A DNA stretch of 34,601 nucleotides from a virus (IMGVR_UViG_3300005843_000025:1-34601), one strand, 5' to 3'. Positions 5,119 through 34,601 are shown, numbered from the stretch's first letter. Numbers and translations: made by a program. Notes: a model not told the origin generated them from the letters alone.

Positions 5119-6048
5119 TCAAAGCCCGAGCTCTGCGCGCTCGAATTCGCTCGGCACGAAATTGCCTGAAGCGATATTCCGCATAATGACTTCCCGCGGA
5201 ACGGTATCGATCGTCACCGGCATGATCGAGTGCTGGCAATTCCAGCCGCCGGCATTGACAAAAATCGTCTGCTCATTCGTGCTGTCTTTCATCTTGCCAG
5301 CCCAGTCAAGCGCAGCCCAGGCTTCGATTTCTTTTTTATGATAATAATTGCCGTGCCGCTCGATGCAAAATTCTCTCGAGGAAGGCAGCTCATCGCCGGC
5401 ATAAAGAAACCATTCAGCCTCGAGATCCTCCGCGATCGCGAAGGTATAGCTGCGGTCGGCGACGGAAATAGCATCGGAAGCAACCTGCTTTGCGTATTGC
5501 AAAAGCTTGCCGCTGATCGGAGCTGCTCCTGCAGGACCTTCGCCTCCGATAGCGATCCGCCGAATAGTCGCGACAGTGTCCTTGATTGAAGCGCCGCTGC
5601 TGATCGCCTTATCGATTTCTGTATTGATCGCCTGCAGGAATCCTGTCTTCGGCGTCGCGCCGGTGAGCAATTCGACCGCATTTCGCTTCGATTGCAAAAA
5701 GACCTGATCAGCGATTTTTGAAGCCTCGAAAGCCGGAAAAGCTTTCTGAAAATACTGATCGGCGAGATCTTTCTGCTTATCGAATTCAGCGGCGAAGGAA
5801 GCGACTGCTGAGAGATAATCGCCGGAGCCGAGGATCTTCGATAAGGAGCGATTGATCTTTTCCGCCAGGCGGAAATTTGCAACCGTCGGACGGATCTTGC
5901 CCTCCGCCGTCCTGGAGAGATCGGCGAGCATCCCGAGGAGATCCTGATAGATATCGCGCTGAATGCGCTCGATATTCGTATAGAGCTCCTCGGGGATCCT
6001 CGAAAGCCTCGCCGCTTTCCGCTTTAAGATATCATTGATCGAAGGCAT
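5119..6048 (-). CDS. Phage head morphogenesis (minor head) protein, Mu gpF / SPP1 gp7-like (309 aa)
   Basis: A minor capsid protein expected to sit inside or near the portal vertex. The N-terminal 190 residues are helical. The C-terminal part carries the family pattern: DRSYTFAIAE, then WFLYAGDELPSSREFC, then HGNYYHKKEIEAW, and finally GGWNCQHSIMPV near residues 268-279. The conserved cysteine and histidine residues of this module are present. It begins in a TGATG junction with the portal stop, the usual portal-to-gpF order. Assignment rests on recognised motifs plus the neighbouring gene. Confidence 0.8.
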   Translation of the reverse strand: MPSINDILKRKAARLSRIPEELYTNIERIQRDIYQDLLGMLADLSRTAEGKIRPTVANFRLAEKINRSLSKILGSGDYLSAVASFAAEFDKQKDLADQYFQKAFPAFEASKIADQVFLQSKRNAVELLTGATPKTGFLQAINTEIDKAISSGASIKDTVATIRRIAIGGEGPAGAAPISGKLLQYAKQVASDAISVADRSYTFAIAEDLEAEWFLYAGDELPSSREFCIERHGNYYHKKEIEAWAALDWAGKMKDSTNEQTIFVNAGGWNCQHSIMPVTIDTVPREVIMRNIASGNFVPSEFERAELGL

Positions 6049-8183
6049 CAGAGAACGGGAGCTGCTCCCGCGGCTTCAGTCTTTATGCGCTCATTGAGAA
6101 CGCGGATGCTATCGGTCAAGGCTTTTGCTGTTTCGGCGTCTCCGGAAGCTTTTGCGGCCTGCTGAGCGCCTTGCAGCTGCCGGAGCTGCTGCATGAGTCC
6201 GCCTTGCGTTCCTGCCATCACCGAATCAACCTGATTGAGCGCAGAGAGGGCATCGGCGGCCTGCTTCGCCGCCTGGATCGAAGCGACTTTCTGCTGCGCC
6301 TTTTCCTGAAGCGCGAGAATCTGCGCATCGATCTTCTTGGTGAAAAACGCTTTATCAGCGCGGATCAATTCGTCGACGAACGTCAATGCGGAATCATGCA
6401 GGATGATTTCCCATTTCTCGATCAAGCCTTGCGCTTCTTTCAATTCAAGATCGGCGATCGGCGCCATGAGCAAGCGATCAGCTGCGATGATAAGCGTAAA
6501 GATCTGCGCCGTCTGCGTTTCGTTATAATACCGGGCCTTGACATATCGCTCGAGGATAGACTTGATGACGAAAGGAGGGAAATTTCCGGCGACAGCTTCG
6601 GAAATTTCGCGGACATAATCAGCCTCCGTCTTTAAATCATAATCGACAGGAGAAGAAACGACCGGTAGATGCTTCTCATATTCCTTCGCCGTAAAAATAT
6701 ACATCGCCGATGCGCGATACATAAAGCGAAGGAGATCGAAGATCTGATCCGCCGTCGGCTTGATGAAAGCTTTCAAGGCGCGATCATCCAGGACCATTCC
6801 CGTCGCCAGATCCGGAGCTCCTCCGCCGGCGCCACCGTTGGATTGAACCTCTGATTTGCTCGTGCCCAGATGCAGGATCCGCTTCGCCTTCGATGTATCG
6901 CGATCAATCTTCTTGAGCAGGAACTCGAGCGCATTCGTGCCTGGCTCGACGAACATCATCGGGTCGCGGAGCTGCGAGGATCCTTGCAGATCTTTATCGA
7001 GACCGGCGAGGCGCTTGATCAGCATCACGCCTTGCGGGCCGAGATTATTCTTCACGCCGAAGCCATTGCAAGCCGGGCAAGTGAAGCGGCTGTCTTCGGC
7101 GATATCATCGATAACGCCATCATTGCAGCGGATCTTATCTCCCGCTCTGTTCGTATGCTCGAAATCGCATTCGGGCCCTTCGAGGATCCTGTAAGGATAG
7201 ACGCAGTTATTAATTGATATCTGCAGATACATTTCATTGAGCAGCGCGAGATCAAGCGTATCGACGGCATAAAAGAAAGGAGAGATCCACATCGTACCTT
7301 CTTTCGTAATCCGCGGAACGCCCTGCAGGAAATGAACCGGTATTTCTCCCCATCCATGGTTGAGCACCATCCGGACCTCAAAAGTCTTGTCCTGATATTT
7401 GCCGACTTGCCGGATAAGGAAGATCTGATCCTCGTCATAAAACTCAAAGCATCTGCCGATCTGCTGCTTGCCTCCGCCGTAATCGACGATGCTTTTCTCG
7501 TCACTTTCATAGAGATAGTATTCTTGAGAACGGAAAGCGACGAGCTGATCGCAGCGAAAATAAATCGGATAAGGCTCAAGGTCCTGCGCATCATCAAGAA
7601 TCTCGCGCGCACCGGCAGAAGCAGCGGGATCGCTCCGATCGATTACATTATTCTGCTCATCGACGAGCAGCGTCTTGAATTCCTTCGGACGTACGACGAT
7701 CGAGCCGAAAGCATCCGTGAGCTTTATGTGCGGAACATAATAACGCCAGAAGTTTTCTAAGGATCCGTATTCCGGAACCTCTTCTTCGACATATTTCTGA
7801 AACTCCGCATCCTCCTCTTTGAACTTTACGCTCCAGGAATTATCATCAAAGACGCGATTGAGCGTAGATAAAAAATCAAGATAAACCGGGAGCGTCGTCT
7901 GCTTGAAGTTTCCTTTGATGTAATTATATTCATCATCGGTCATTCGAGGAGCCCGCGAGCGGAAAAGCATCTCGGGGAATTCGCATTCTTCGCTGTGCAC
8001 GCGAATGCGATCGCGCATTTCACAGACGGAGCGATAGATGCTATAATATTCAGGCCGCTTCGCTTCTTCCTTTTTCTTGCGGAAGACTCGGCCCATTAAT
8101 TCACGGACGCGATCAGCCTCGCTGTCACTGCTTATTTTGATAACAGAAGTTACGATCTTCTGAACGTCTTCGATGCTGTACAT
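6048..8183 (-). CDS. Phage portal protein (711 aa) with an internal cysteine cluster
   Basis: The likely dodecameric DNA gate. It is long and mainly helical in its second half. Residues 100-300 hold a mixed alpha/beta clip/stem-like region, and the C-terminal 100 residues are Q/A-rich coiled coil (KAQQKVASIQAAKQAADALS). Size, composition and direct coupling to the gpF-like gene support portal. Unusual are C339, C353, C369 and C372 (the last two in a CPAC motif followed by NGFG), which could form a zinc-ribbon-like knuckle. The start at 8183 is preceded by AATCAAAGCT. The 100-base gap upstream contains short hairpins but no clear terminator. Confidence 0.75.
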   Translation of the reverse strand: MYSIEDVQKIVTSVIKISSDSEADRVRELMGRVFRKKKEEAKRPEYYSIYRSVCEMRDRIRVHSEECEFPEMLFRSRAPRMTDDEYNYIKGNFKQTTLPVYLDFLSTLNRVFDDNSWSVKFKEEDAEFQKYVEEEVPEYGSLENFWRYYVPHIKLTDAFGSIVVRPKEFKTLLVDEQNNVIDRSDPAASAGAREILDDAQDLEPYPIYFRCDQLVAFRSQEYYLYESDEKSIVDYGGGKQQIGRCFEFYDEDQIFLIRQVGKYQDKTFEVRMVLNHGWGEIPVHFLQGVPRITKEGTMWISPFFYAVDTLDLALLNEMYLQISINNCVYPYRILEGPECDFEHTNRAGDKIRCNDGVIDDIAEDSRFTCPACNGFGVKNNLGPQGVMLIKRLAGLDKDLQGSSQLRDPMMFVEPGTNALEFLLKKIDRDTSKAKRILHLGTSKSEVQSNGGAGGGAPDLATGMVLDDRALKAFIKPTADQIFDLLRFMYRASAMYIFTAKEYEKHLPVVSSPVDYDLKTEADYVREISEAVAGNFPPFVIKSILERYVKARYYNETQTAQIFTLIIAADRLLMAPIADLELKEAQGLIEKWEIILHDSALTFVDELIRADKAFFTKKIDAQILALQEKAQQKVASIQAAKQAADALSALNQVDSVMAGTQGGLMQQLRQLQGAQQAAKASGDAETAKALTDSIRVLNERIKTEAAGAAPVL

Positions 8184-8283: not shown

Positions 8284-8592
8284 TTACTGCTTTTCGGAAG
8301 CCGGAGCTTCGATCTTGATTTTGCCGTTTTCATCGAGCGGGAGATTTTTAGTTATGAAATTTTTAAGTGAGCCGGGATCCTTGAAGTATCCTCGGAAATA
8401 TTTTCCTGCCGTCGGCCTGGTTCCGATCGGGTAAAGGATCATGAATCCGCAGCCGATGCAGACATGCAGAATCATATCATCGATTCGATAAAGATCTTGC
8501 GTGCCGCCTTCGTTGCGGCTGAAATATTTTACGCCGATATTTTCGACGATAGGCTGAGCCCAGGCGCAGGCCGGTTTAGTAGAGTCATTCAT
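8284..8592 (-). CDS. Small hypothetical CxxC protein at the end of the sugar cassette (102 aa)
   Basis: The start overlaps the stop of the upstream glycosyltransferase gene (ATGA, 8589-8592). A central segment HVCIGCGFMILYPIGTRP holds a single CxxC preceded by His, which could bind a metal. The C-terminus is charged and probably flexible (APASEKQ). I recognise no family. It is the last gene before the portal, so it may belong to either the sugar cassette or the head module; the tight coupling favours co-expression with the cassette. Confidence 0.65.
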   Translation of the reverse strand: MNDSTKPACAWAQPIVENIGVKYFSRNEGGTQDLYRIDDMILHVCIGCGFMILYPIGTRPTAGKYFRGYFKDPGSLKNFITKNLPLDENGKIKIEAPASEKQ

Positions 8593-9386
8593 GCTTCAAT
8601 TTTTTTTATGTAGGTTTTTGATTCGCCGATCCATCCCTTCTTGCCGAAGAGAAAAGAAATATGCAGCGGGAATTCGAGCTTCGATCTTTCGGCTTCGAGC
8701 TGCAGCTTGAGCCAGGGATGATAGATCATTTCATGCCCGCCGTAATATTGAGACTTAAAATAAACATCCCGCTCAAAGAGGAAAGCGAAATGCTTGAAGC
8801 GCTCTTCGATCAGAATCGTCTTCCCGTTTCCGCCTTCAAGCTCCGGCGGCTCATGCTTCGCAAATTGCTCGCCTCGCCAATGCCAGAGACGGCGATAAGG
8901 AATCAGATTGCCTTCGCCCCATTGTCCGACAGCAAGAAGATCATGCGAGAGATAATAATCGCAGAGGAACGTGCCGGTCTTTGCATTCTCCCTCAGCAGG
9001 CGCTCTTCGGCCCGCTCCATTTGCTCCGGCAGCCATTGCTCATCGGCATCGATTTCCCAGAGGAAGCATTCTTTATGCCCGGCAAGAATCAGCGCATCGA
9101 CGGCAGCGCGAACCATATCGTCTTTGCCTGCCCAAAACTTCTGAGCAAACCGGTATGAAACTTTCCCGGGATATTTCTTTGAGAGATCTTCGATGAATTC
9201 TCTCGTTCCGTCTTTTGAGGCATAGCTGCGATCGAGCATATTGCACCAAGAAGTTGAGCCTCCGTTGCCGGCGGCGCCTTCGATGATGATCCAGTGATCA
9301 AGCGCATTGCAAAGCCGCTCAGCATAAAGCTCGTGCTTGAGATGATGCAGGCCGTTGTAAATGATTGTATACGCGATTCGTTTCAT
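8589..9386 (-). CDS. Glycosyltransferase, GT-A fold (GT2/GT17-like) (265 aa)
   Basis: Predicted to transfer a sugar from a nucleotide-sugar donor. The ATG at 9386 (MKRIAYTIIYNGLHHLKHE) is chosen because it forms an ATGA overlap with the upstream stop; an earlier start at 9407 lies inside that gene. The N-terminal pattern, with an early beta strand followed by YNGLHHLKH, and the motif LWEIDADEQW (residues 109-118, with D113-A-D115) match metal-binding DxD sites of GT-A enzymes. Aromatic residues are abundant in the second half, as in acceptor-binding regions. There is no membrane segment, so it probably acts in the cytoplasm. Donor and acceptor are unknown. Confidence 0.72.
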   Translation of the reverse strand: MKRIAYTIIYNGLHHLKHELYAERLCNALDHWIIIEGAAGNGGSTSWCNMLDRSYASKDGTREFIEDLSKKYPGKVSYRFAQKFWAGKDDMVRAAVDALILAGHKECFLWEIDADEQWLPEQMERAEERLLRENAKTGTFLCDYYLSHDLLAVGQWGEGNLIPYRRLWHWRGEQFAKHEPPELEGGNGKTILIEERFKHFAFLFERDVYFKSQYYGGHEMIYHPWLKLQLEAERSKLEFPLHISFLFGKKGWIGESKTYIKKIEA

Positions 9387-10045
9387 AGCTTCTGGAATAT
9401 GCTCCATCCCTTTCCGGTCAGAAGATCCTCATTGATTTTTTTGTACTGCAGCGGGATCGCAAGCAATGCGGTGCGATTCGCCTTATTCTTGATATCGTTG
9501 CTGTCGAGCAATACGATATACTTTGATCCGCTTAAAGCGGCATAATCCGCGGCGCCTGAGAATTCGCTTCCGGAAAGGATCGCGATATCAGGAGCAGAAG
9601 AGAGCTCGTCTGCGATGATATCTTCTGCCCAGTCTTCATGCGCCGAAGAATTCGTAATGTATGCAAGCTCGGTCAATCTGCGCGCCTGGATCGATGCGAT
9701 ATCATTTGCATCAGGCAAGGAGGGATTCGCAAAATAAAAATCGCTGACGTCTTTTGCCGTCATGTAATCGGTATGCGCCGAAGCGATTCCCTTTTTTGGG
9801 AAACAAAGGACTGAGTTAATCATCCGCGCCGAGAGCTGAGAGAATAGCGAGGCAGAAAGCTCGATCGGGAAGAATTTATAATAAGCTTTTCCGAAGCTCA
9901 TCTTGCGATCGAATGCTTCCATGATCGCGGAGCTGAGGCCGGATCCGTCGCCGGCACCGGTATCAATAGCCGTCTTGATATCGATTTGCGAAGCAATTCC
10001 GTAGACGATATTCCATAAGCGCCCGCCTTTAGTAAATGGGTTCAT
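9383..10045 (-). CDS. SAM-dependent methyltransferase-like protein of glycan-cluster type (220 aa)
   Basis: Residues 26-38 (AIDTGAGDGSGLS) match motif I of class I SAM methyltransferases, and IELSASLF further on may correspond to the next strand. The C-terminus reads SKYIVLLDSNDIKNKANR and ends GKGWSIFQKL, a pattern I know from methyltransferase-like proteins in surface-polysaccharide clusters. It overlaps the FkbM gene by 17 bases and is coupled to the downstream glycosyltransferase. It probably methylates, or takes part in building, the same glycan. A binding protein without catalysis cannot be excluded. Confidence 0.6.
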   Translation of the reverse strand: MNPFTKGGRLWNIVYGIASQIDIKTAIDTGAGDGSGLSSAIMEAFDRKMSFGKAYYKFFPIELSASLFSQLSARMINSVLCFPKKGIASAHTDYMTAKDVSDFYFANPSLPDANDIASIQARRLTELAYITNSSAHEDWAEDIIADELSSAPDIAILSGSEFSGAADYAALSGSKYIVLLDSNDIKNKANRTALLAIPLQYKKINEDLLTGKGWSIFQKL

Positions 10046-10574
10046 GCTCCTTTTTTTTGAAAGTTAAATTCAAAGCTTTTGCGCCGCTCAGGCGGAATCC
10101 TGCCTGATCAAGCTTCATCGCTATCTCGTCGATCTCCTCATCGCTCATGTGAAAGTATTCAAAGCTGATCAGCTGGATATCGATCAGCGAGAAGTCAATC
10201 GTCCGGATGATCCTTGCATCATATCCTTCGGTATCGATTTTCAAATAATCGATTCTCGGATAAGGATGCTCTTTCAGCAAATCATTGAAAGAGATTCCGC
10301 GGACGCGAATTTTGCGGGCCGAAGAATTCTTGTCGACTTTTTTATGATGCGATTCCAGGAGCGAGGACCAGTCATCGTTCGTATCGACGACGAAGAAATC
10401 GAATTCGCCTGATTCTTCCGTGATCGCGGCATCGACGAACGTGATATTTTCATGCCTGATCTCCGGGCAAGCCGCAGCTCCGAGCGGATCGATCATCAAG
10501 CCTTGCCATCCGAGTCGGGCGAGATCGATTAGCGTATCATAGCGATTGCATCCTATTTCGATGAAGTATTTCAC
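10029..10574 (-). CDS. FkbM family methyltransferase (181 aa)
   Basis: An O-methyltransferase of the FkbM family, which commonly modifies sugars and polyketides. It starts with GTG at 10574 in a GTGA overlap with the upstream gene. Visible motifs are FIEIGCNRYDTLIDLARLGW (SAM-binding region, residues 4-23), MIDPLGAA (residues 27-34), and the signature DYLKIDTEGYDARII around residues 109-123. At 181 aa it is compact compared with many family members. Its setting between two glycosyltransferase genes indicates that it caps or modifies a sugar. Confidence 0.85.
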   Translation of the reverse strand: MKYFIEIGCNRYDTLIDLARLGWQGLMIDPLGAAACPEIRHENITFVDAAITEESGEFDFFVVDTNDDWSSLLESHHKKVDKNSSARKIRVRGISFNDLLKEHPYPRIDYLKIDTEGYDARIIRTIDFSLIDIQLISFEYFHMSDEEIDEIAMKLDQAGFRLSGAKALNLTFKKKEHEPIY

Positions 10575-12844
10575 TGCAAATCGTTTATGCGGTTCCAGTT
10601 ATTCTCGAGCAGCGTCTCATCCCATTGATTCGGCACCTTGTCCGTCTTGTGATAATATTTCGGAATATCATGCGCCTCCGGGATGAGATCGACGAAGCAA
10701 CAAAGCGAAGAATCGATGCAGTGAATCTCAGTTGCATTGAGAATCACCTGCAGCCAATCGAAAATTGTATACGATGCGCGCGGCTTGAAGTCTATTCTCT
10801 TCAGGCTTGTCTCAATGATGGCGGCGCTTCCGTAATCGCTGTTATCATGAATCAGGGCGAACTCTTGCCCATCAGCTTCTTCCAGGACATTGCGAAGCAA
10901 ATAATTCTCCGCATCTGCGTCTCTTCGATATTCAAGCTGCTTTCGCTTCTCGACCGGGATGCCGGCGAGCTCATATTTTGCTTCGATGAAAGAAGAGAAG
11001 CGCTTCTTCTCGCGCTGCCACCAAGCCTCGGGAGCTCCTCCCTGGCCGAAGCTCAGATCGAGGACGCGAGCATAATATCCTTGCTCAGAAGCGACGGGCC
11101 GCGCATAATCGAAATATTTAAAGAGCGAGTGATAAGAAGTCGGGCAGAGCCAATCGATCAGGAATTCATCGGCGTAATGCCGAGCGATCGGCATGCAGAT
11201 CAGGATATCGCCGACTTTTCCTTTTTGAATAAGCAGCATCCGCTTCTTGCGATAAGGATCCGCTTTCTCTGAAGGCAGAGGAGCGACTTCTCCCGGGATC
11301 CGGTCTGCTTCGGAATATCGCTTCGCTCCATGGTTATGGAGATGAAAGCTCTTGATTGAGAAGGAAGGATTCGCGACTCTGCGATAATGCTTGCGCATTT
11401 CAAAAGCAAGGCGGTTATCGCATGCCGGCCTTCCGAAAAAGAAATCGCAACTCATCTCGGGAATTTTCCCGCGGAAAATCCAGACGTCCTGCGACCATTC
11501 GTAATTGAAATGCTTCAGCGTTCCCTGGCTGTCGATTTCCCATCGAGAGAGCGCATAAGCAGACTCTTCATAATTCAGCTCCTTAATCCTTCTCAGGTTC
11601 TCGTCCGTGAAATAAATATCAGCATTAGCGATAATGCTGATGATATCTTTCCGCTCAGCCTGTGCATCATTCGCAAGAGCGAAAACATCCTTGAATGTCG
11701 GGCGCGAAGAGACTTCGATCATTCTTATTTTCGCGCTTATAACCGGCGAGCTGATCAGCTTCTCGCTGATCAAAAATATATTTTCAATTTCTTCGCAAGC
11801 CGAATTAAGCTTCAGGCACTTTATCAGCTCAGCATTGCGCAGCGGATCCGGATCCTCGAAATAAGAAAGGAAAAGATTTATCTTTTCATAATGCTGCATC
11901 TGCGGAATGCTCTCGGAGAGGTATTGCGCCGGCGGCTTGCGCAGCTGCGATCCGTTCGCATGCTTATCGCTCATGATCAAGTGATGCTTCAGATAGTGCG
12001 GCAAGCCCTTCGCGCGATGGAATTCATGCAGACGGCCGTCATAATATTCAAGCATCAGGACGCGCGGCATATTTTTATTTCCAAAGAGGCAGAGGATCGG
12101 AAATCTCCTTTCAAGCTCTTGATATCCGATATCGCTGCGATCATTCGCCATGAATAAATAAGGCCGGGCCGTTTCGCCCGTGATTTTCATCTGCGCAAGA
12201 GCGACATTCAGATAAAGCTCGTCGGGTTGCGTTCCGCCCCAGGTATATCTGAGCCGATCGAGCGGGATCGGGTATTTGTAATTCTCGCGGACCTTCCTCG
12301 AAAGCGCCTCCGCTTCCGGGCCGCGCTTCCAGTATTTAAAGCTACTGTTCGTCGCCGGCAAGACAGCATCTTCGGGAAGATTAAAATGACTCCAGATATC
12401 GTCGGCGAAAGCCCAGACCATATCATTAATCACGCGGCCCTGCGAGAGCTGATGCTTGCCGATGATATGAGAGTAGAAATATCCGCCGGCAGCTTCGAGC
12501 TCATCAAAAATGATTGAGAGGTCCTGCAGCGCGAGTGCATCGACATCGAGCTCGAGCGTATGCTCAAAAGGAAAATAATCATAGGCGCACATTTTGATAT
12601 AACCGGGATCGATCGATCCGCCGTGCCAGAGGATCTCATCCGGGATCTGAATCTTGTAATCGAATACGCCTGGCATGTAAGCATAAGAAAGCTCGCGTTC
12701 GATTCCGCCGTCATGAAAAATTGCGATCGGCATATCCGGATTGAAATGCTTGATGCTTCGGGCGAAATTATACGCAGCAAAATAATATCCGCGCTTGCCG
12801 AAGCATGAGAGGAAAATTCCTCGTTTAGGTCTTTGTATATCCAT
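10571..12844 (-). CDS. Three-domain glycosyltransferase fusion (757 aa)
   Basis: Three sugar-transfer-like modules in one chain. Residues 8-290 form a GT-A-like domain with a DVD metal site at 100-102 (HTLELDVDALAL). Residues about 320-510 form a second GT-like module with IIANADIYF, ALSRWE, SQDVWIFRG, FGRPACDNRLA and FHLHNHGAKRY. Residues about 534-757 resemble a GT-B fold of the GT9 heptosyltransferase type, with KGKVGDILICMPIARHY and CIDSSL near the C-terminus. The start at 12844 is preceded by TTCAAAGCA. It opens the sugar cassette and may assemble a short oligosaccharide by itself. Donors and acceptor are unknown. Domain boundaries are by eye. Confidence 0.75.
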   Translation of the reverse strand: MDIQRPKRGIFLSCFGKRGYYFAAYNFARSIKHFNPDMPIAIFHDGGIERELSYAYMPGVFDYKIQIPDEILWHGGSIDPGYIKMCAYDYFPFEHTLELDVDALALQDLSIIFDELEAAGGYFYSHIIGKHQLSQGRVINDMVWAFADDIWSHFNLPEDAVLPATNSSFKYWKRGPEAEALSRKVRENYKYPIPLDRLRYTWGGTQPDELYLNVALAQMKITGETARPYLFMANDRSDIGYQELERRFPILCLFGNKNMPRVLMLEYYDGRLHEFHRAKGLPHYLKHHLIMSDKHANGSQLRKPPAQYLSESIPQMQHYEKINLFLSYFEDPDPLRNAELIKCLKLNSACEEIENIFLISEKLISSPVISAKIRMIEVSSRPTFKDVFALANDAQAERKDIISIIANADIYFTDENLRRIKELNYEESAYALSRWEIDSQGTLKHFNYEWSQDVWIFRGKIPEMSCDFFFGRPACDNRLAFEMRKHYRRVANPSFSIKSFHLHNHGAKRYSEADRIPGEVAPLPSEKADPYRKKRMLLIQKGKVGDILICMPIARHYADEFLIDWLCPTSYHSLFKYFDYARPVASEQGYYARVLDLSFGQGGAPEAWWQREKKRFSSFIEAKYELAGIPVEKRKQLEYRRDADAENYLLRNVLEEADGQEFALIHDNSDYGSAAIIETSLKRIDFKPRASYTIFDWLQVILNATEIHCIDSSLCCFVDLIPEAHDIPKYYHKTDKVPNQWDETLLENNWNRINDLQ

Positions 12845-12910
12845 TGCTTTGAAGATTAAAAAAGCTCAGAAGCTTACGGGCCTCGAGCCTCAAATCTTTT
12901 GATTTGATTT
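12845..12910 (-). promoter_or_regulatory. Gap between tail gene and sugar cassette with weak hairpins
   Basis: This 66-base gap is one of the few untranslated stretches. On the minus strand it holds GGCTCGAGGCC and, a little further on, AAGCT-TCTG-AGCTT followed by a run of T. The second has only five base pairs, so it is at best a weak or attenuating terminator. The leader TTCAAAGCA precedes the next ATG. No clear promoter is seen. It may tune readthrough from tail genes into the sugar cassette. Confidence 0.3.
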
Positions 12911-13459
12911 TTAGAAAATGCCGACCGGAACGTTCCACATCGAAGGATTTTTCATTGAAGACCAGTCGAGCTCGCCCTCGAAACGCTGCATCTCTTTATT
13001 CCCTTTCGGAATAATCAAGCCGCCTTTCAATTTGAGAGGACTGTTAATCCATGAAACTTTTTCAATAACGCCTTCTTTTCCGCACTGCGCCAGGATTGCT
13101 CCGGCGAAAGTACGGCCGTCGAAAAGCTTATCGTGCTGCTCGATGTTATTCGGCGTCACATTCGGATTCACGTATGCGCCTTTACGCGTATAGTTCGTGA
13201 TGTTTGCCGATTCGCAAGGAACATCGGACTCAGTCTCGTCCGGCGTCGGAGCGTCGATCGTAAAGCTGCAGCGCAAGACGCGATGCGCCGTTCCTGCAAG
13301 CAGCGCCGCATTGATCTGTGCTGCATCGGAAGGGTTCGTAATTCCATGCCCGTCTTCAAGAAATAATCCGGCGGGCATTCCACCCACGAGATCATCCTTC
13401 GGGCATCGAATCGTATCAAAGGATCCAAGAGGATCCGTGCTACAATAGTCGATTGCCAT
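12911..13459 (-). CDS. Putative minor virion / tail protein (182 aa)
   Basis: The start ATG at 13459 is preceded by an AT-rich leader ending CTTAAATCA, with no Shine-Dalgarno sequence. The sequence has many Pro, Asn, Gly and short strands: TIRCPKDDLVGGMPAG, CSFTIDAPTPDE, INSPLKLKGGLIIPKG. That is typical of a beta-rich virion protein. Six cysteines are present, more than usual. It sits between tail-tip genes and the sugar cassette. A tail-tube role is possible by size but tube genes normally precede the tape measure, so I leave the function open. Confidence 0.6.
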   Translation of the reverse strand: MAIDYCSTDPLGSFDTIRCPKDDLVGGMPAGLFLEDGHGITNPSDAAQINAALLAGTAHRVLRCSFTIDAPTPDETESDVPCESANITNYTRKGAYVNPNVTPNNIEQHDKLFDGRTFAGAILAQCGKEGVIEKVSWINSPLKLKGGLIIPKGNKEMQRFEGELDWSSMKNPSMWNVPVGIF

Positions 13460-13553: not shown

Positions 13554-15536
13554 TTAGAATGAATTATGGAAGAAGAGCGTTTCTTTCTCGCGGATCTGCA
13601 GCTCGAGGTCCGCATCGGCCCGATTGTTTTTTATTCCTCTCGGCCAGGAAGGAGACATATCCTTCGCCGGGCAATGATAAATATCGCCCGAATCAGGATC
13701 GCCGATCACATCTGTATAGACGCCGATCTGATCCGCTTTCGCGATCACCCTCAGCGCATCGAAGCTTCCTTCATCGAGCTGAGCGACGCTGAATGTCCAG
13801 CGCTTCTGCAGCTGCTCCGCCGTTCGTTTATGCGAGCCGGCATTATTGATATATTCATCACCGGCATCGGGATAATCAGCTTGATGAAATTCGGCGACAG
13901 CTCGGAGCATCGGCTTGAAGAAGCTCGTCCATTTAAAGCCGTATGCTGTCCTCCAGAGATTAAATCCCTGATCATCGATGATATCATCCATCTGCGCGAA
14001 GATCTGCTTGCCGCAAGGAACATTCGAGGAGATATTCAAGCACTGAGAGCAATAATCCGCATCAGGCTCAGGCGCTCCCAGGCATGCAGGATTAACAAAT
14101 ACGCGAACGTAATCGATGATGATATCCGTGCCGACGCCTCCGCTTTGAATCGTAAATATTGTATTTGCAAACGGGCCGGTGAAAGGAACGATGATTTGAT
14201 TCTGCGAATCAGGCGTCAAATCTGCATCGACGACGACGACTCCTCCGCCGAAGACGATCGTGACATGCCCTGTCGTGCTTTCATTCAAAGCGAATCCGAT
14301 CGCAAGAAAATAACAAGTCGTTCCGCTCGGCGGCAATATCACCGGCCCGAGATCAGCATCGATCTGTCCGTCTCCGATGATATGCAGAAATCCGCTGCCG
14401 ATATCCCATCCGAGCGAAGCAGGCGAAGGAGACCAGCCGGTCGCCGTGACGAATTCGCCGAAGCCCTGCAGCTTATCATTCGTCGGCCCGTAAAGATTGC
14501 CCTCATCGAAGACGCAGACTTTATAACAGCCTGCAGGAAGATTCAGATCTGCGAGCTCTTTATAACAGCTCAGCGAATCCTCGATCAAAACGACGTCATT
14601 TGAAAGATCGGCGACGAAATTATTATCATCATCATAAAGGCCGATGAAATGTCTCGCAAATTGTTTTCCGAATTGAATCACTTCGATGCAGCCATCGAAA
14701 TCCGTCGAAGGAACGAATGCAGGATTTGCCGAAGTCGAAGCATAGAACCATCGCGTATAATATCCATTCGCAGAAAAATTTTCGGAGAATCCTCCTGCAG
14801 CAAATTGAACATTCCCGGCCGTAGAATTGAAGATCCGGAAATTTACGCGATAGCGATATCCGATCGTCGGAATATAGCTATACATATCGAGGAAAAAAGT
14901 CGATCCGGGCGTATGGCAATACCAGGTCCGGAGCTGATCCTCGCTTTCATTTCCGATCCAGTCGAAGCTGCCCAGGGCGAAGCCGAAGACATACGCTTCG
15001 ATATCGTCGACTTTCCCTCCGATCGCGGCATTGAAAATTACTTTAAGCGGAGAGCCGTCGCTGACGTGCTTCCATTCAAGCCATCCGGCAGCGGAGGCAC
15101 GATCGCTCTCTGCTCCGGATGTCGTCTCTTGCATGTATATCTCTCCTGCCGGCAGATCAGAAATATTCAAGCGGAAGAAATACGTCTTGCCGGCGACGAG
15201 CGAAAGGCTCAGGAATTGAAGATCGCCAGTTCCGCTTGTGATGCCCTCGTATGTTCCAGGCACTCCGTCGTTATGCTGAATATCGCCGTTATAAGTGACA
15301 GGACTATCGATCGGATCCGAGAAGTCATCGCTGAAGATGAAATCCTTCGTCAGATCAAGCGAGCCGATCTCATTCAAAGAGCGATTCTTTATCTGGAAGC
15401 TGATCCAGTCTTTTGAAGAATCAAGCAGCAGGCAGAGCGGCTTAACCGGATCGCATTTCGGATTACAGGTCTCCGCTTCGCGCGGATCGCTGAATCGAAT
15501 AGGCTGATTTTTTATTTCTGAAAGATTCTGTGACAT
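13554..15536 (-). CDS. Putative tail protein with carbohydrate-binding-like beta domains (660 aa)
   Basis: The gene starts two bases after the stop of the upstream tail gene. Residues 1-60 include a CNPKCDPVKPLC segment. Residues about 70-480 look like two or three beta-sandwich modules, with strands such as GKTYFFRLNISDLPAGEIYM, GYRYRVNFRIFNSTAGNVQF and TGHVTIVFGGGVVVVDADL. These resemble jelly-roll carbohydrate-binding domains of tail-tip and adhesin proteins. The C-terminal 170 residues are different and helix-containing (FKWTSFFKPMLRAVAEF, QLQKRWTFSVAQLD), perhaps the tail-docking part. Its place after the tape measure and a tail-tip candidate supports a host-binding role at the tail end. 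Confidence 0.65.
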   Translation of the reverse strand: MSQNLSEIKNQPIRFSDPREAETCNPKCDPVKPLCLLLDSSKDWISFQIKNRSLNEIGSLDLTKDFIFSDDFSDPIDSPVTYNGDIQHNDGVPGTYEGITSGTGDLQFLSLSLVAGKTYFFRLNISDLPAGEIYMQETTSGAESDRASAAGWLEWKHVSDGSPLKVIFNAAIGGKVDDIEAYVFGFALGSFDWIGNESEDQLRTWYCHTPGSTFFLDMYSYIPTIGYRYRVNFRIFNSTAGNVQFAAGGFSENFSANGYYTRWFYASTSANPAFVPSTDFDGCIEVIQFGKQFARHFIGLYDDDNNFVADLSNDVVLIEDSLSCYKELADLNLPAGCYKVCVFDEGNLYGPTNDKLQGFGEFVTATGWSPSPASLGWDIGSGFLHIIGDGQIDADLGPVILPPSGTTCYFLAIGFALNESTTGHVTIVFGGGVVVVDADLTPDSQNQIIVPFTGPFANTIFTIQSGGVGTDIIIDYVRVFVNPACLGAPEPDADYCSQCLNISSNVPCGKQIFAQMDDIIDDQGFNLWRTAYGFKWTSFFKPMLRAVAEFHQADYPDAGDEYINNAGSHKRTAEQLQKRWTFSVAQLDEGSFDALRVIAKADQIGVYTDVIGDPDSGDIYHCPAKDMSPSWPRGIKNNRADADLELQIREKETLFFHNSF

Positions 15537-15538
15537 CG

Positions 15539-17503
15539 TTAAGGCTTTAAGCGCTGAGAAGAGATGAGGCTGAAATCGGCTTGCCCCTGGCCGCGGTTAT
15601 ACGTGATCGTATCGATCCATGATTTATAATTGCTCGTTCCGTCCGTATTGAATTCTATTGCAAGCGAGAGATCGCGCAGAATTTTTTTCCATTGCTTCCG
15701 CGTCATTTTAAACCGGAAGAGATAGAGAATGCACTTAAAGTCAAGATCCTCGACCGTCGCCCAGATGCCGCCGCCGAAAGTCGTGAACGTGCATGTGAAA
15801 TAAGAAGAAGGGAGGATCTCCCAGTCGATTGTATGATTCGAGGTGATGTTGAATTTCCAGAAGATGCGGACATAATCTGTCGCATTTAGATTGAATGCAA
15901 ATTCCTGCTCGTAATTGAGCGGAAGATTCACGCCGACGGCATTCGTTATTCCCCAGAAAAAGTTCTGAGAAGAGACGACGGCATCAGCTGCATTGAATCT
16001 CGTAACGGTTAATTCAATATTCCCTCCGGTGCCAAAGCTCAGCGTGTGCAGTAGCGTATTCAATCCCGCCTTAAAGCGGAAGAAGCCTCCGGAAGAAGCT
16101 GTATATCGCTGATTCGCTAAAATGCTAACAAGCGTTCCGGGAGCGGTTCCGTTACCGTAATTATTTCCGTCGTCGAAATTCGTCGGGCCAGAGAAATCAT
16201 CTCGCGCCGAGACGCCAAGATTATACGTTCCCGGTCCGCCGCCGCCCTGGATCCGCTGCGTCTTCGCATAGGTTCCATAAAATCTTCCATCGGCGCCGCC
16301 GAGAAAATTTGCGACCGATAGCGGAATACCATGAAGCCAGCGCTGCAGCTTATGATCATTATTCAATCCCTCGTTATAGAAATAAGGCGTCGGAGCTGAA
16401 AGCCAATTCGAGCGCTTCGCCTGCGAATTCACCCAGTCGACTTGAACAAGAACGATCTTATCGTCATAATCGGCGACGTTATTGACATAGATCTGCTCGA
16501 TAATATTCGATGAGATGATCCAGCTGTTCTGCGCATCGAGCTCCTGATCGAGATTGCACTGCCCGACGGTCGGATATTGCTCCGGCCTGAAGCCATAGAG
16601 CCGCGTCGTCTCCGGGAATTGAACAGCTCCGGAGCTATCGTCGATCGTCTCTGATCCTGCTTTGAAAGAAGCATACAATCGACTCGTATCGACTTTCTGC
16701 CTGATGTCTTTCACGAAATCTAATTGAACCGAACTATCGGCAGCATAAAGATCATCTTCGCGATCGACGCGCAGAATCGGTCCGGAGAGCGATTCCTCGA
16801 TCGTAATACTCAGGCTGTATTCTTTATTCAATTCAGAGAAGACTTCCTGCCAGGCGATTTCGGGCTGCTTATCATGCAGATTCAAGTATCCATCCCTGAG
16901 CTCCTTCGCGAGAATGATGCCCGCATCTTCACAGACTCCGCCGGTATCAAAAGCATCGGAGCGAAATCCGATCGCACCGTCGCTCATCCAGGCGACAAGG
17001 AATTTCATCGCATCGAATGCGCGATAGACATACCGGTTCGCCGTTCCGTATGTGCCGGTCGATGGCGTGAAAAATTTTATCGATGAATACGGGCAAGCCG
17101 CGATTCCTTTATCCGTCTTCGAGCGCGTGCTCGTGAATAATGCTTTGAGGTTTTTGTTTTGATTGATCCGGGCGTAATACGAATTATCATCCGTATTGCA
17201 TTTGACATAAAACGGCTCGATGCCGAATTCGCAGCCGCCGATCCGGATGATCCCTTCATGGATCTTTTCCCATTGCCCGATTTCGTCTTCATCCTCCTCG
17301 ATCAGGATCGCGACTTCGTTGCAAAAGCCATCATCATAGACGCGTTTAATATATCGATATCCGTCTTCGTAAAAAATCAGCGTCGCATCTTGCGTCAAGC
17401 TGCGCAGGCGAGTCGTCTGATCATATTTAACGGTATCCTTCAGATCATTTATCCCTGCAGGAGATTCTTCTAATAAACGGCCGTCGAGAAAGACTCTGAT
17501 CAT
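15539..17503 (-). CDS. Putative distal tail / tail-tip protein with beta-sandwich insert (654 aa)
   Basis: It starts in an ATGA overlap with the tape measure stop, where distal tail or tail-hub genes normally lie. The N-terminus (MIRVFLDGRLLEESPAGIND) and the next 260 residues form a mixed alpha/beta core with VFSELNKEYSLSITIEESLSG. Residues about 405-560 are a glycine/aromatic-rich beta segment (SGGFFRFKAGLNTLLHTLSF, GGNIELTVTRF, YVRIFWKFNITSNHTIDWEI) that looks like an inserted carbohydrate-binding-like sandwich. The C-terminal segment returns to a helix/strand pattern. I cannot name the family; tail-tip location is by synteny. Confidence 0.65.
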   Translation of the reverse strand: MIRVFLDGRLLEESPAGINDLKDTVKYDQTTRLRSLTQDATLIFYEDGYRYIKRVYDDGFCNEVAILIEEDEDEIGQWEKIHEGIIRIGGCEFGIEPFYVKCNTDDNSYYARINQNKNLKALFTSTRSKTDKGIAACPYSSIKFFTPSTGTYGTANRYVYRAFDAMKFLVAWMSDGAIGFRSDAFDTGGVCEDAGIILAKELRDGYLNLHDKQPEIAWQEVFSELNKEYSLSITIEESLSGPILRVDREDDLYAADSSVQLDFVKDIRQKVDTSRLYASFKAGSETIDDSSGAVQFPETTRLYGFRPEQYPTVGQCNLDQELDAQNSWIISSNIIEQIYVNNVADYDDKIVLVQVDWVNSQAKRSNWLSAPTPYFYNEGLNNDHKLQRWLHGIPLSVANFLGGADGRFYGTYAKTQRIQGGGGPGTYNLGVSARDDFSGPTNFDDGNNYGNGTAPGTLVSILANQRYTASSGGFFRFKAGLNTLLHTLSFGTGGNIELTVTRFNAADAVVSSQNFFWGITNAVGVNLPLNYEQEFAFNLNATDYVRIFWKFNITSNHTIDWEILPSSYFTCTFTTFGGGIWATVEDLDFKCILYLFRFKMTRKQWKKILRDLSLAIEFNTDGTSNYKSWIDTITYNRGQGQADFSLISSQRLKP

Positions 17504-20388
17504 CTTCTCCAGGGATTATCGAGGCGATCTTCTGCCTCGGGAAAATTCTTTATGCTGATGCCGCGGCTCCATAATTTTCGGAAAGTCTTTTCAGTTACGC
17601 CATCGGATCCGGCGGTCATCGTGACGAAGCTCTCAGAGATATTCTTTCCGAGCATCCTGCTTTTCTCTTTCTCGAATGCGCGCTGTTGCCGCGCAAGCGC
17701 CGGCGCCGTAAAGCGATGATAAATCAATTTATCAAGCGTTCCTGCTTCGATCGCCTCGAAGAGCTCATAATGCTTACGATTCGTCTCCGGATCCGTCACG
17801 CGCTCGCCATGCTTCAGGAGCGCGACCTTCTCATCCTTCTTCATCTTGATTCCCGGCCAGCGCTTGCCGTCAGCTCTGACAAAGCTCACGCCTTCGTGAT
17901 ATTTCGGAGGCTGCAGCGCAAGCGTCGCCGCAAGCTCTGATGCTGCGAGAGCTGAAGTAAGCGTGATCAAAATCCCTGCAGCGATTGGATTGCCGGCTTC
18001 TTTCGAGAGGATATCCATGATCGCTTGCGCCGTCTTCAGCCCGATATCGAAAACGGCTCGGCCTTTCGCGATGATATCTTCTCGCTGCCTGATCTTGTTG
18101 AGCTGAGACTGCAGCGCACGCTCATTGCCGACGCGCTTATCTTTGAGCTCCTTGCTGCGCTTTTCATATTCGGCCTGTCCGATGATGCGCTCGTCGAATT
18201 GTGCTTTCAGATCCGCCGTCTCCTGGTCTTGCGCTGCTTGATTAGCGGCGAGCTGAGCGTTGACGTTATCCTCATTCGACTTTGCAATATTGCTGAAGAC
18301 ATCAGCTGAGGCATCGCCGATTTGATTGATCAGATCGAGTTCTTCGCGATGAAGCGCCTGGAGTCGGCGCTGCTGCTTCTCTTCATCGCTGACTTCTTTT
18401 TCATTGAGCTTGATCTTCGCCTCGATGAATGCCTGCGCCGCTTTGAGCTTCTCTGCATCAGTCGATGCTGAGCTCTTGAGGATCTCTTCATTCTTCAGCG
18501 CCTCGGCCTGCAGCTCTTTCTGCATGATATCCTCAGCGAGCTTCTCCGAATCAGCTTTGCCGCGGTTCGCTTTCTCTTTCGCCGCTTCCGTCAGTGCGAG
18601 AATCTCCTTCGTCTTGGTTAAGTCGATATTCTGCAGCGTCGCCGCGAGATCTTCTTTCGCATTATTCTCATTGAGCTTCTTGCGCTCCTTCGCGATCTCC
18701 TGATCCGTCTTCAATCGATTGGTCCGGATGATCGCATCGGTCGCATTCTCTTCATGAATAACGAAGGTATTGAAATCTTCGACAGCTTTGCGATCGCCTT
18801 CGACCGCGATCGTGATCTTTTGATTTGTCGTCGAATCCGTGACCGTTGAAAATTTCGTCACGCCGGCATCTTTGAACGTCTGTTTATTCTGAGCGATTTT
18901 ATTCGCCAGGGCCTGCTGCTGCTCTTTGATGAATCCCTGATGCTTCGCCTCAAGGATCGCTTCGATATTCTGCTGCTCCTGCTCGAGCCTTTGCGCATCG
19001 AGCTTCGCGAGCGCATTCAATTCATCGGCGCCGGCATCGGTCCGCAGCTTATCTGCTTCCTTCAAAGCTTCGGCTTGCTTCTTCGCACGCTCTTTCGCTG
19101 AGGCACCGGTGATCTCATCGATCTGCTTTTCTCTGGCAGCGATTTCAGCCAGGATCTTTGCTTGCTGAGCTTTGCCGGTCGTGAGCGGATTCTCGACGCG
19201 CTCAAGCTCGGCCTGCAAATTTGCGACCTGCTGCTTGAGATGCTCAAGCGTGATCGTCGATCTTTCAGCGAGCCGGCGATCGCGATCTTCTGCTTGCCGG
19301 AGGAGATCCTCAGCTGCAGCGACTTCAGCTTCAAAATATATTCTTTGCGCGCCTTTCGCTGTCTGCAGGCGCAGCTGCGCATCCGCTTTCAGCTGATCGA
19401 GCGTCTCCTTATCTGCTTGTGCATAAATTTTCGTCAGTGCTTCCTGCTGCGTTGCAACGGCATCGCGTTGATTCTTCGCATCTTCTTCATCTGTCGTCGT
19501 CTTGCGGAATAATCCGAAAGGATTCAGGAGGACTGACCTGTTTTTATCGACGAGATCTTTCGCTCCCTGGAAAATCAAGCCGAGGCCCTCGAGCCAGGCC
19601 GAAGCATATTTCGCTGCAAAGACTTTCGCCGGAGCGATCTGCTCACCGATCCGAATCGTCGTCTCTTCAATCTCGACTTGCGTCCGCTGCAGCTCGCCTT
19701 GCACGCCGGCGAGACCTTTCTCGGCGAAGCCTTTATATTTCTCCGCGACGAGATCAATCACGGCGCCGTTCTCACGTTCGACCTGAGACGTATCGCGGAT
19801 CTTCGCATCGAGCTTGCCGAGCTTGCCGATATTTCCTTCAAGCGTCGCATCGAGGATCCGGACGGCTCCCTCCAGGCCGAGCTCAGGCTTCACAGCTGCA
19901 AGCTCCGTCGCGGCATTGATAATCTTCTTGATCTGTGCTTCGGATCTTCCTTGCACAGCAAGAAAGGCGCTCTGCGAATTAATAACGGCGGGAGGGATGG
20001 CGAGACGAACAGAGAGCTCTTCGGCAAACTTCAGGAGGCGCTCCTGCGCCGGTGCATTTCCTTGCAAGGCTCCGAGGAGCTGCAAGGCGCTCTTCTCTGA
20101 TTTAGCAAAAGCATCAACGGCTTCTTCGCCAAAATGGATAATGCGCTCGACGGCGAAAGCGGCGACGACGCGCTCAGCAAGAGATCGGAAACGATCAGAG
20201 ATCCGCTCGGCTTCTTTGCCGAGACCGGACATTTCTTCGGCGGCATGCTTTGCGCCTTGCCCCGCTGCATCGGTTGCTTTTTTTGCCGAAGCTTCGACGA
20301 TTCCGAATTGCTTGCGGAGCTCGGAGACATCTCCTTTAAGCTTATCAATCTCTAATCGATAGACGGCGACGATATCTTCTTCAGCCAT
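17500..20388 (-). CDS. Tape measure protein (962 aa)
   Basis: The longest gene in the window. It sets tail length and is threaded inside the tail tube. The N-terminal part is helical with hydrophobic patches (RVVAAFAVERIIHFGEEAVDAF). Residues about 320-760 are almost continuous coiled coil rich in A, K, E and Q. A hydrophobic segment follows (NPIAAGILITLTSALAASE, about residue 800). The C-terminal region contains PPKYHEGVSFVRADG and KKDEKVALLKHGERV, a pattern often seen at the ends of tape measure proteins. It lies just after a tail-chaperone-like gene pair, the standard order. No muralytic domain is visible. Confidence 0.9.
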   Translation of the reverse strand: MAEEDIVAVYRLEIDKLKGDVSELRKQFGIVEASAKKATDAAGQGAKHAAEEMSGLGKEAERISDRFRSLAERVVAAFAVERIIHFGEEAVDAFAKSEKSALQLLGALQGNAPAQERLLKFAEELSVRLAIPPAVINSQSAFLAVQGRSEAQIKKIINAATELAAVKPELGLEGAVRILDATLEGNIGKLGKLDAKIRDTSQVERENGAVIDLVAEKYKGFAEKGLAGVQGELQRTQVEIEETTIRIGEQIAPAKVFAAKYASAWLEGLGLIFQGAKDLVDKNRSVLLNPFGLFRKTTTDEEDAKNQRDAVATQQEALTKIYAQADKETLDQLKADAQLRLQTAKGAQRIYFEAEVAAAEDLLRQAEDRDRRLAERSTITLEHLKQQVANLQAELERVENPLTTGKAQQAKILAEIAAREKQIDEITGASAKERAKKQAEALKEADKLRTDAGADELNALAKLDAQRLEQEQQNIEAILEAKHQGFIKEQQQALANKIAQNKQTFKDAGVTKFSTVTDSTTNQKITIAVEGDRKAVEDFNTFVIHEENATDAIIRTNRLKTDQEIAKERKKLNENNAKEDLAATLQNIDLTKTKEILALTEAAKEKANRGKADSEKLAEDIMQKELQAEALKNEEILKSSASTDAEKLKAAQAFIEAKIKLNEKEVSDEEKQQRRLQALHREELDLINQIGDASADVFSNIAKSNEDNVNAQLAANQAAQDQETADLKAQFDERIIGQAEYEKRSKELKDKRVGNERALQSQLNKIRQREDIIAKGRAVFDIGLKTAQAIMDILSKEAGNPIAAGILITLTSALAASELAATLALQPPKYHEGVSFVRADGKRWPGIKMKKDEKVALLKHGERVTDPETNRKHYELFEAIEAGTLDKLIYHRFTAPALARQQRAFEKEKSRMLGKNISESFVTMTAGSDGVTEKTFRKLWSRGISIKNFPEAEDRLDNPWRR

Positions 20389-30581: not shown

Positions 30582-31104
30582 CCTTTGCCTCCTTGAGCTC
30601 AGCCTTGCTTGAGACGACGCGCCTGGTCACTTCAATCTTCCCGATCTCCTCCGGCATGTCGATCTCCGTGATGCGCTTATATCCGCGATCACGACCTTTC
30701 CGCTCAAGATAAAACCGGACCGATTCGCCGTCCGGAGGATAATTCTTGATGCTCGGAACGATCGTCTTATGCACCGTCTTCTTCTCCGTCCGCTTGCCGT
30801 TCTTATCGATCGAGACTTCTGTCGTCGTATGAAAATAGATCTTATCCTCGGGCACCTGAGCTCCCTTCATCAGCTTCATCAGCTGCGATTCTCCGAAGTC
30901 AAGACCGATATCATCGATCGCCTTGACAGCTTTGGCGAATTCCGGATCATCGGCGAGCCAGCGATAATAAGCCGACCGGGCAACTTTAGCAAGGCGGAGC
31001 GCATTGCTGACGATGCCGAGAGATTTCTCCATCGCGGCGAGCATTCGCGCCTTCGCGATTTCGGTCCTTTTCTGTGTCTTTTTCTCCTTTTCTTCCTCTT
31101 TCAT
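30562..31104 (-). CDS. Terminase small subunit-like DNA-binding protein (180 aa)
   Basis: ATG at 31104 (MKEEEKEKKTQKRTEIAKAR) overlaps the upstream stop (ATGA). A helix-turn-helix-like segment lies at about residues 22-62 (AAMEKSLGIVSNALRLAKVA, then RSAYYRWLADDPEFAKAV), the pattern of phBC6A51-type and related small terminase proteins. The middle carries a hairpin with many K/T residues, and the C-terminus (GYKRITEIDMPEEIGKI) is charged, as expected for contact with the large subunit. It directly precedes the large subunit. It should recognise the packaging start site. Confidence 0.78.
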   Translation of the reverse strand: MKEEEKEKKTQKRTEIAKARMLAAMEKSLGIVSNALRLAKVARSAYYRWLADDPEFAKAVKAIDDIGLDFGESQLMKLMKGAQVPEDKIYFHTTTEVSIDKNGKRTEKKTVHKTIVPSIKNYPPDGESVRFYLERKGRDRGYKRITEIDMPEEIGKIEVTRRVVSSKAELKEAKDERTKG

Positions 31105-31814
31105 AATACGTTCCAAAATAAGACTTTATGGTCTTGCGGGATCTCTCCGCGGTATTTGCGCATCAAGTACTCCCATGCTTTCGCATCATAATTCGCCGAG
31201 CTCTTGAAGGGAGGCCTGATCCTGCATTCCTGCTCGAATCGATATGGGCAAGGAATCAGCTGAAGATTCGGCGGAAATTTCTGCTTTTCGTACCTGCTCT
31301 TCAATCCGACAGCGACAGCTGATATTTGCGATTCGCTGAAGACCTCGGCAAGGCATCTGCTGAGCATTCCTGAGCCCGCTGCGCAGCAGACCTCATCGAT
31401 TGAAGGAAGAGCAGCCTTGACGGATCGGATGAAGCTCAGGAAGGGCTCTCTTGCTTCAGGAAGATCAAATCCGAGCGGGAACATCCAGGCACCGGTCTTC
31501 TCGCAATATGCCCGGGCCTTGGCTTGGACATTTGACATGAAGCCGAGCGGAACTTCGATGATCCGGGCTCCGTTATTCCGGACGATCTTCTGCATCCAAT
31601 GAAGCTCTTTCCGCTTAGCATAGAAAATCGTCACCGGGATATTCATCTTCTTTCCGACATAACTCATCGCCAGAGCTGCTCCGCCGAAGACGGGCGAGCC
31701 GTAAACGACCTCAGCTTTGCCTTCCATCAAATAAGGAAGAAAGCGAGCCTTGCTGCCGCCTTCATAGCGATCATCTCTCAGGACGAATGCTCCGCTTATT
31801 TTTTCGATGATCAT
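31101..31814 (-). CDS. PLP-dependent enzyme, fold-type II (cysteine synthase / ACC deaminase-like), short (237 aa)
   Basis: Landmarks of the tryptophan-synthase-beta superfamily occur in order. EGGSKAR (18-24) has K22 as the likely Schiff-base lysine. GSPVFGGAALAMSYVGKKMN (39-58) matches the S-G-N-H-type loop plus helix, and IPVTIFYAKR and NGARIIEVPLGF resemble the following strands. AAGSGMLSR (145-153) matches the glycine-rich phosphate-binding loop. At 237 residues it is shorter than usual enzymes (about 300-340), so the C-terminal part is reduced. It sits between a DNA methyltransferase gene and the terminase genes, coupled to both. A role in making a DNA-modifying group is a hypothesis; simple amino-acid metabolism is the alternative. 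Confidence 0.72.
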   Translation of the reverse strand: MIIEKISGAFVLRDDRYEGGSKARFLPYLMEGKAEVVYGSPVFGGAALAMSYVGKKMNIPVTIFYAKRKELHWMQKIVRNNGARIIEVPLGFMSNVQAKARAYCEKTGAWMFPLGFDLPEAREPFLSFIRSVKAALPSIDEVCCAAGSGMLSRCLAEVFSESQISAVAVGLKSRYEKQKFPPNLQLIPCPYRFEQECRIRPPFKSSANYDAKAWEYLMRKYRGEIPQDHKVLFWNVL

Positions 31815-33244: not shown

Positions 33245-33281
33245 AAAGCTTTGATTGAGCAGCGAATCTACAAAAAAGGTT

Positions 33282-34330: not shown

Positions 34331-34601
34331 GCCGCAGCAAGAAGCTCGAGCAGCTTGTCGGCCATTAATTTGTAGTGCTTTTTTCGTGAAGCTGCGTAAG
34401 CTGCGTCAGCTGCGGAAGCTGCGGAAGCTGCGTAAGCTGCGGAAGCTGAGTAAGCTGAGTAAGCTGAGTAAGCTGAGTAAGCTGCGGAAGCTGCGGAAGC
34501 TGCGGAAGCTGCGGAAGCTGAGTCAGCTGCGTCAGCTGCGTCAGCTGCGGAAGCTGAGTAAGCTGCGGAAGCTGCGGAAGCTGCGGAAGCTGAGTCAGCT
34601 G
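34327..34601 (-). CDS. Alanine/serine/tyrosine/aspartate tandem-repeat protein (5' end beyond window)
   Basis: The frame is open from the right edge to a TGA at 34327, which overlaps the next ATG. Its visible part is 23 complete tripeptide units of form [S/Y/D]-[A/S]-A (eleven SAA, five YSA, three DAA, two YAA, two DSA), followed by SRKKHYKLMADKLLELLAAA. The periodic A/S/Y/D pattern would make a helix or solenoid-like rod, ended by a charged amphipathic helix. Alanine-rich phage proteins of this look are sometimes annotated as Imm-5-like; I suggest that only as a possibility. The N-terminus is missing from the window. Confidence 0.7.
   Translation of the reverse strand, partial: ADSASAASAASAAYSASAADAADAADSASAASAASAASAAYSAYSAYSAYSASAAYAASAASAADAAYAASRKKHYKLMADKLLELLAAA
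34390..34601. repeat. 9-bp in-frame tandem repeat array (23 copies plus a partial copy)
   Basis: From 34390 the plus strand is a head-to-tail series of 9-mers of form AGCTG[C/A]G[G/T][A/C]. Only three of nine positions vary. Five of the eight possible variants occur: ending CGGA (11 copies), AGTA (5), CGTC (3), CGTA (2) and AGTC (2). The array continues to the right edge. On the minus strand each unit is three codons, so copy-number change keeps the frame. Confidence 0.95.

Follow-up and report, generated by a model that had tools for sequence, protein, structure and literature searches.

The window analysed here, the entire 34,601-nt (34.6-kb) IMG/VR record IMGVR_UViG_3300005843_000025, carries its likely genes on the minus strand. 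Transcription runs from a Rap/NinG-like nuclease through a ParB-N/DNA methyltransferase, TerL (PHROG_2, E 2.6e-30), several small genes and a tape-measure-like protein (17500-20388) to the tail proteins (15539-17503 and 13554-15536), and from there through a 182-aa gene here called g14 (12911..13459, minus strand), an enzyme cassette (12844-8284, minus strand) and the portal gene g08 (6048..8183, minus strand) to the head morphogenesis, scaffold-like and capsid genes. A number of these assignments rest on gene order and related loci rather than on library matches, and the PHROG match of the head morphogenesis gene is weak. The portal, which forms the downstream border of the island, shares 28-35% identity with those of 80 kin loci, and the kin portal has matches among the portals annotated in phages of Croceibacter, Polaribacter and Bacteroides. 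Within it, residues 339-376 hold four cysteines (C339, C353, C369 and C372, with the pattern CPxCxGxG) that are invariant in five aligned portals and look like a zinc-ribbon insert, which would be unusual in a portal protein. Farther upstream, the ParB-N/DNA methyltransferase fusion lies beside a PLP-enzyme-like ORF (PALP above the Pfam cut-off; PHROG_7093) just before the terminase genes (31101-33301), and a 9-nt tandem repeat array (34352-34601) that reaches the right end of the record probably marks an assembly break.

An earlier note, made from the sequence by itself, had described five ORFs set between tail and head genes, and both the ORFs and their placement hold: all five are found on the minus strand, between the tail-tube-like g14 and the portal gene, and the enzyme cassette itself is confirmed as real. 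Head-to-tail overlaps join its four enzyme genes. At the junction of the first two (g13 and g12) a GTG start overlaps a TGA stop as GTGA, g12 and g11 overlap by 17 nt with a ribosome-binding-site-like AAGGAG, and both the g11/g10 and the g10/g09 junctions are formed by ATGA. The cassette genes resemble their neighbours in base composition, and recent horizontal arrival, as judged by that measure, was rejected on this ground. A promoter search with a simple Bacteroidota pattern gave no matches, and a hairpin between g14 and the glycosyltransferase gene was no better than in shuffled sequences (z -0.86).

The first and largest gene, g13 (10571..12844, minus strand), encodes a 757-aa three-domain glycosyltransferase that matches no Pfam family at cut-off. 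Residues 3-235, 322-530 and 617-721 match separate phage proteins by tblastn, and g13 is therefore modular; the same three-domain architecture occurs in three related loci (L106, L107 and L111). Domain 1 (11945..12844), hereafter GT1, is predicted to be a GT8/glycogenin-like GT-A domain. A profile built from 26 relatives retrieves glycogenin (E 1.7e-5) and the Skp1 alpha-galactosyltransferase (9e-5) from the PDB, and Foldseek matches the AlphaFold2 model (pLDDT 92) to glycogenin (6.5e-9), at 11-14% identity in the fold alignments, and also to UGGT, LARGE1 and two enzymes of LPS synthesis, LgtC and WbbM. The nearest solved relatives thus include protein glycosylators, namely glycogenin, UGGT and the Skp1 galactosyltransferase. 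Both the DxD motif (D100, D102) and a WG..PDE motif (W202-G203/P207-D208-E209) are invariant in the 26 sequences, and alignment, model and Foldseek search agree in pointing to the GT-A fold with DxD expected of the GT8 family. Library matches among these relatives are sparse: three of the 26 match Pfam Glyco_transf_8 (best E 0.0061) and ten match PHROG_1903 (best 2.8e-7), a family without assigned function, while the window copy matches neither.

Domain 2 (11210..11929) is a glycosyltransferase-like domain with 29-39% identity to SWZG_00036 of cyanophage S-SKS1, to a huge-phage ORF and to L107; it has the invariant motifs N.D, SRW, QD.W and CDN, its S-SKS1 relative adjoins a nucleotide-sugar epimerase, and its profile has no hit in the PDB. 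Domain 3 (10571..11209) shares 42-44% identity with domain 3 of L106 and L107, with HCIDSSL invariant, and its profile returned nothing significant from the PDB; the motifs GKVGDIL..P and IDSSL, recognized by eye, suggest a GT-B/GT9-like domain by motif only.

Downstream of g13, membership of g12 (10029..10574, minus strand) in the FkbM methyltransferase family is secure, as the earlier note had proposed, with scores above the curated cut-offs for both PF05050 (E 2.5e-14, 54.2 bits against 22.7) and TIGR01444 (3.2e-12, 47.1 against 37.7) and a further match to PHROG_8156 (1.4e-7). The window thus combines phage-encoded glycosyltransferases with a tailoring methyltransferase. No tblastn match was obtained between the window gene and the FkbM genes of kin, and g12 was therefore probably acquired separately. 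The second methyltransferase-like protein of that note, g11 (220 aa; 9383..10045, minus strand), contains a SAM motif-I-like sequence, AIDTGAGDGSG, but matches no family in Pfam, PHROGs or NCBIfam, class I SAM methyltransferase profiles included. It is collinear with a 212-aa methyltransferase-like gene of L107 (hhalign E only 0.15), a correspondence that is suggestive only, and we regard a second methyltransferase as its probable though unproven identity.

The GT-A assignment of g10 (8589..9386, minus strand) is likewise upheld, not by Glycos_transf_2, whose match (E 0.0014) is below cut-off, but by homologues at the same place in seven kin loci that keep its DADE motif. In the L106/L107 clade the tblastn match reaches 1.5e-52, and the L107 homologue has 38% identity to the GT2-like window protein with DADE invariant. 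The start at 9407 is probably to be replaced by 9386, because the kin homologues begin at the internal ATG of the window sequence there. Less can be retained of the last member of the set, a 102-aa ORF with a single CxxC (g09; 8284..8592, minus strand) joined to g10 by the ATGA overlap. It has no kin by tblastn in any locus searched and no family in Pfam, PHROGs or NCBIfam, and it was rejected as an established part of the island for want of kin. It also bears on the claim that the cassette is free of membrane anchors. By the criterion of a 19-residue window above 1.6 on the Kyte-Doolittle scale, no membrane span is found in the window's four enzymes or in 195 island proteins, but a hydrophobic stretch of g09 reaches 1.76 and makes its case uncertain.

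Searches for related loci with single proteins (the 757-aa protein, portal and TerL) found nothing. Kin were reached by aligning TerL with that of a Campylobacter phage and then by alignment of the kin portals, which yielded 80 kin loci in 17 clusters besides the window (70% identity); as many of the loci are close relatives, counting by cluster is fairer. GT1 is carried by all 17 of the 18 portal clusters that could be assessed, the remaining one (L103) having too little sequence to judge. Recurrence of the cassette at the same place in related phages, suggested earlier as a check, is thereby borne out: such genes occupy this place in all assessable kin clusters, and their placement is therefore not due to chance. 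The L106/L107 clade repeats the window's arrangement minus the FkbM gene and the 102-aa ORF. Portals of the lineage match only phages of Bacteroides, Parabacteroides, Alistipes, Polaribacter and Croceibacter, from which its hosts are probably Bacteroidota. No prophage turned up in GTDB genomes scanned with the portal alignment and the 220-aa protein, and three distant Bacteroidota phage isolates that we inspected have no glycosyltransferase annotated in the late region.

The genetic partner of GT1 is g14. GT1 lies in the same stretch in 51 of the 52 loci that have g14, the exception (L110) having it elsewhere in the record, and it begins within 150 nt after g14 in 47 of the 52, with stop/start overlaps (TAATG, ATGA) in several clades. 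In one clade without GT1 near the portal, the gene was found when whole records were searched. In the kin G008-G010 the pair is intact, overlapping by a few bases, far from the portal, and the linkage of GT1 is therefore to g14. This adjacency, preserved even where the pair lies elsewhere, constitutes a genetic link to the gene of a putative virion protein. In Mantel tests the pairwise distances between GT1 sequences follow those of the structural proteins (g14, portal, capsid, scaffold and head morphogenesis) at r 0.90-0.94, and both GT1 and the cargo around it are under purifying selection, with dN/dS of about 0.02-0.15, like the structural genes.

The cargo itself differs by clade and consists of functions for making and decorating glycans. 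It includes a Methyltransf_24 enzyme in 36 loci, FkbM in 17 and GDP-mannose 4,6-dehydratase in 13 (match at E 1e-114), in addition to an asparagine-synthase-like amidotransferase (AsnB), a hexapeptide acyltransferase, further glycosyltransferases and a weakly matched sulfotransferase. In one locus (L156 6308-8158, G002) the core glycosyltransferase is fused to a GH130-like domain (PF04041, 2.3e-10), possibly a build-and-trim enzyme. In another (L164, G001) HNH homing-type ORFs lie inside and beside the island (8683-9216 and 12638-13192), a possible route for cargo exchange.

What g14 encodes is indicated by its predicted fold. The AlphaFold2 model, from an alignment of five sequences, has pLDDT 71 and pTM 0.71; its leading Foldseek hits in the PDB are phage tail tubes and Hcp (9occ, E 8e-4, probability 1.0, TM 0.43), and in BFVD it matches several proteins that carry a tail tube or major tail protein name. 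Tail tubes make up most of the top PDB hits and of the named hits in BFVD, at TM ~0.4-0.5, a similarity that makes the case for a tail tube good but not conclusive. No sequence match was found to structural or virion proteins of Bacteroidota isolates, and nothing else in the kin records stood out as a tail-tube candidate. Two cysteines (C6 and C19), perhaps a disulfide or metal site, and a C-terminal PxG[IV]F are conserved in 25 relatives. No Ser, Thr, Tyr or Asn of g14 is conserved in all relatives; the best Ser/Thr columns reach 92-96%, and one of these is Lys in the window. With no universally conserved hydroxyl, the capsid or a fibre may be the acceptor instead, or the site may lie elsewhere on g14.

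Glycosylation of a virion protein is the best reading of this arrangement, because a glycosyltransferase moves with a tail-tube-like gene among interchangeable sugar and methyl genes that lack membrane parts. We consider it likely that these genes form a virion-glycosylation island, acting late in infection and in the cytosol, with the tail tube as the leading acceptor. The tail-tube gene and the glycosyltransferases would be made together, late in infection. The GT8-like domain 1 would most likely place the first sugar on a virion protein in the cytoplasm, for which the abundant tail-tube protein is the leading candidate; the other glycosyltransferase domains and the GT-A enzyme would lengthen the glycan, and the FkbM enzyme and the probable second methyltransferase would O-methylate it. 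By retaining the first glycosyltransferase and exchanging the tailoring genes, the lineage could give each phage type a different coat, which might serve in shielding, adhesion or tail stability. The earlier proposal of a dedicated virion-glycan system with a soluble target, in preference to host LPS, keeps its conclusion on other grounds: the glycosyltransferase locked to a tail-tube-like gene, the variable cargo, the lack of any membrane protein and a phylogeny in agreement with the one seen for structural genes. Its own argument from missing anchors is weak, because many LPS glycosyltransferases are soluble.

That solubility also serves the competing view that the enzymes alter the LPS or capsule of the host during infection, excluding competitors or keeping progeny off debris. 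GT8-, GT2- and GT9-like enzymes, FkbM and GDP-mannose dehydratase are characteristic of loci for surface polysaccharides, and the GT8-like folds predicted for GT1 extend to LPS enzymes, with LgtC and WbbM among its hits. We nevertheless judge this view improbable, since the first glycosyltransferase is tied to the tail-tube-like gene and goes where that gene goes, none of the islands contains a flippase, a lipid-linked transferase or any further membrane protein, and no integrase is present among the window proteins scanned. Nearer to the preferred reading, and a sub-case of it rather than an addition, is the idea that the capsid or a tail fibre is the true acceptor and that adjacency to g14 reflects merely a convenient late operon, as it may. 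Some kin have cargo beside the portal or scaffold instead of g14, g14 itself offers no universally conserved hydroxyl residue, and mycobacteriophage capsids are glycosylated (PMC11600133). However, g14 is the only gene that accompanies GT1 in almost every kin cluster, and the codons of the two frequently overlap; we hold this sub-case to be unlikely, though it is the likeliest of the alternatives.

Two further alternatives remain. Mobile cargo, or morons, lodged in a permissive site and of no use to the virion would account for the variation of cargo between clades, for the homing-type HNH ORFs of one island (G001) and for window FkbM and 102-aa genes that are without kin in place. Such cargo is hard to reconcile with a GT1 that is universal in assessable kin, congruent with the structural genes and under strong purifying selection, or with window genes whose base composition is that of their neighbours, and we give it very little credence. 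Least probable of all, and rejected, is decoration of phage DNA through hypermodified bases. DNA is the substrate of some phage glycosyltransferases (Pyle et al. 2024, as cited in PMC12619734), and this genome encodes a DNA methyltransferase (31814-33301), but no base-hypermodification gene is found among the window proteins scanned, the genes sit among structural genes, tailoring by FkbM and hexapeptide enzymes fits glycans, and the closest relatives of known structure transfer sugars to proteins or lipids.

If virion glycosylation is correct, protein glycosylation would be a built-in part of tail morphogenesis across a whole phage lineage and not a sporadic addition, and in the variable islands nature would have provided a collection of glycan coats whose acceptor is defined. 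What had been a vague guess as to whether phage glycosyltransferases target the host surface, DNA or the virion becomes a directly testable two-gene hypothesis involving g14 and GT1. A more specific version, which we put forward only tentatively although it is a serious possibility, is that a widespread lineage of uncultured phages, with probable Bacteroidota hosts, encodes a tail-tube glycosyltransferase that is obligatory and coupled to the gene of the tail tube. A swappable tailoring island would then provide every phage type with a tail coat of its own, methylated or decorated in some other way, and the whole would be the viral equivalent of a flagellin glycosylation island.

Comparison with known systems helps to place the island. 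Glycogenin is a eukaryotic self-glucosylating enzyme, and it shares with domain 1 the predicted fold, the sequence-profile match and the DxD motif of GT8-type enzymes; unlike glycogenin, domain 1 offers no evidence of self-modification. PHROG_1903 is common to some GT1 relatives but not to the window copy. The gtrABC seroconversion cassettes of temperate phages are also phage-borne glycosyltransferases; the present island differs in having no membrane components, no integrase seen and a position embedded among structural genes. Seroconversion of the gtr type was rejected as an explanation, there being no membrane flippase or translocase component among the 195 island proteins and the four enzymes here. 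A closer parallel is virion glycosylation in mycobacteriophages, where glycosyltransferases encoded beside an O-methyltransferase modify capsid and tail tube, the acceptors reported in PMC11600133 and PMC12619734 (from Freeman et al. 2023). To speak of a new system is therefore an overstatement, since virion glycosylation by phage glycosyltransferases and methyltransferases is already known there; the organization of the island and its lineage look new. The mycobacteriophage system is experimentally shown, whereas the present one is proposed from gene content, homology and synteny, with a GT8-like core glycosyltransferase locked to a tail-tube-like gene, swappable cargo and an uncultured, probably Bacteroidota-phage lineage. 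The flagellin glycosylation islands of Enterobacteriaceae, present in 15% of strains and highly variable in cargo (PMC4875605), similarly bring together genes for glycosyltransferases, SAM/FkbM methyltransferases, sugar biosynthesis and acyltransferases, inserted next to one that encodes an abundant tubular polymer. Those islands belong to the bacterial chromosome and to flagellin, and their presence varies; the island described here would serve the virion, and its core glycosyltransferase is universal among assessable kin.
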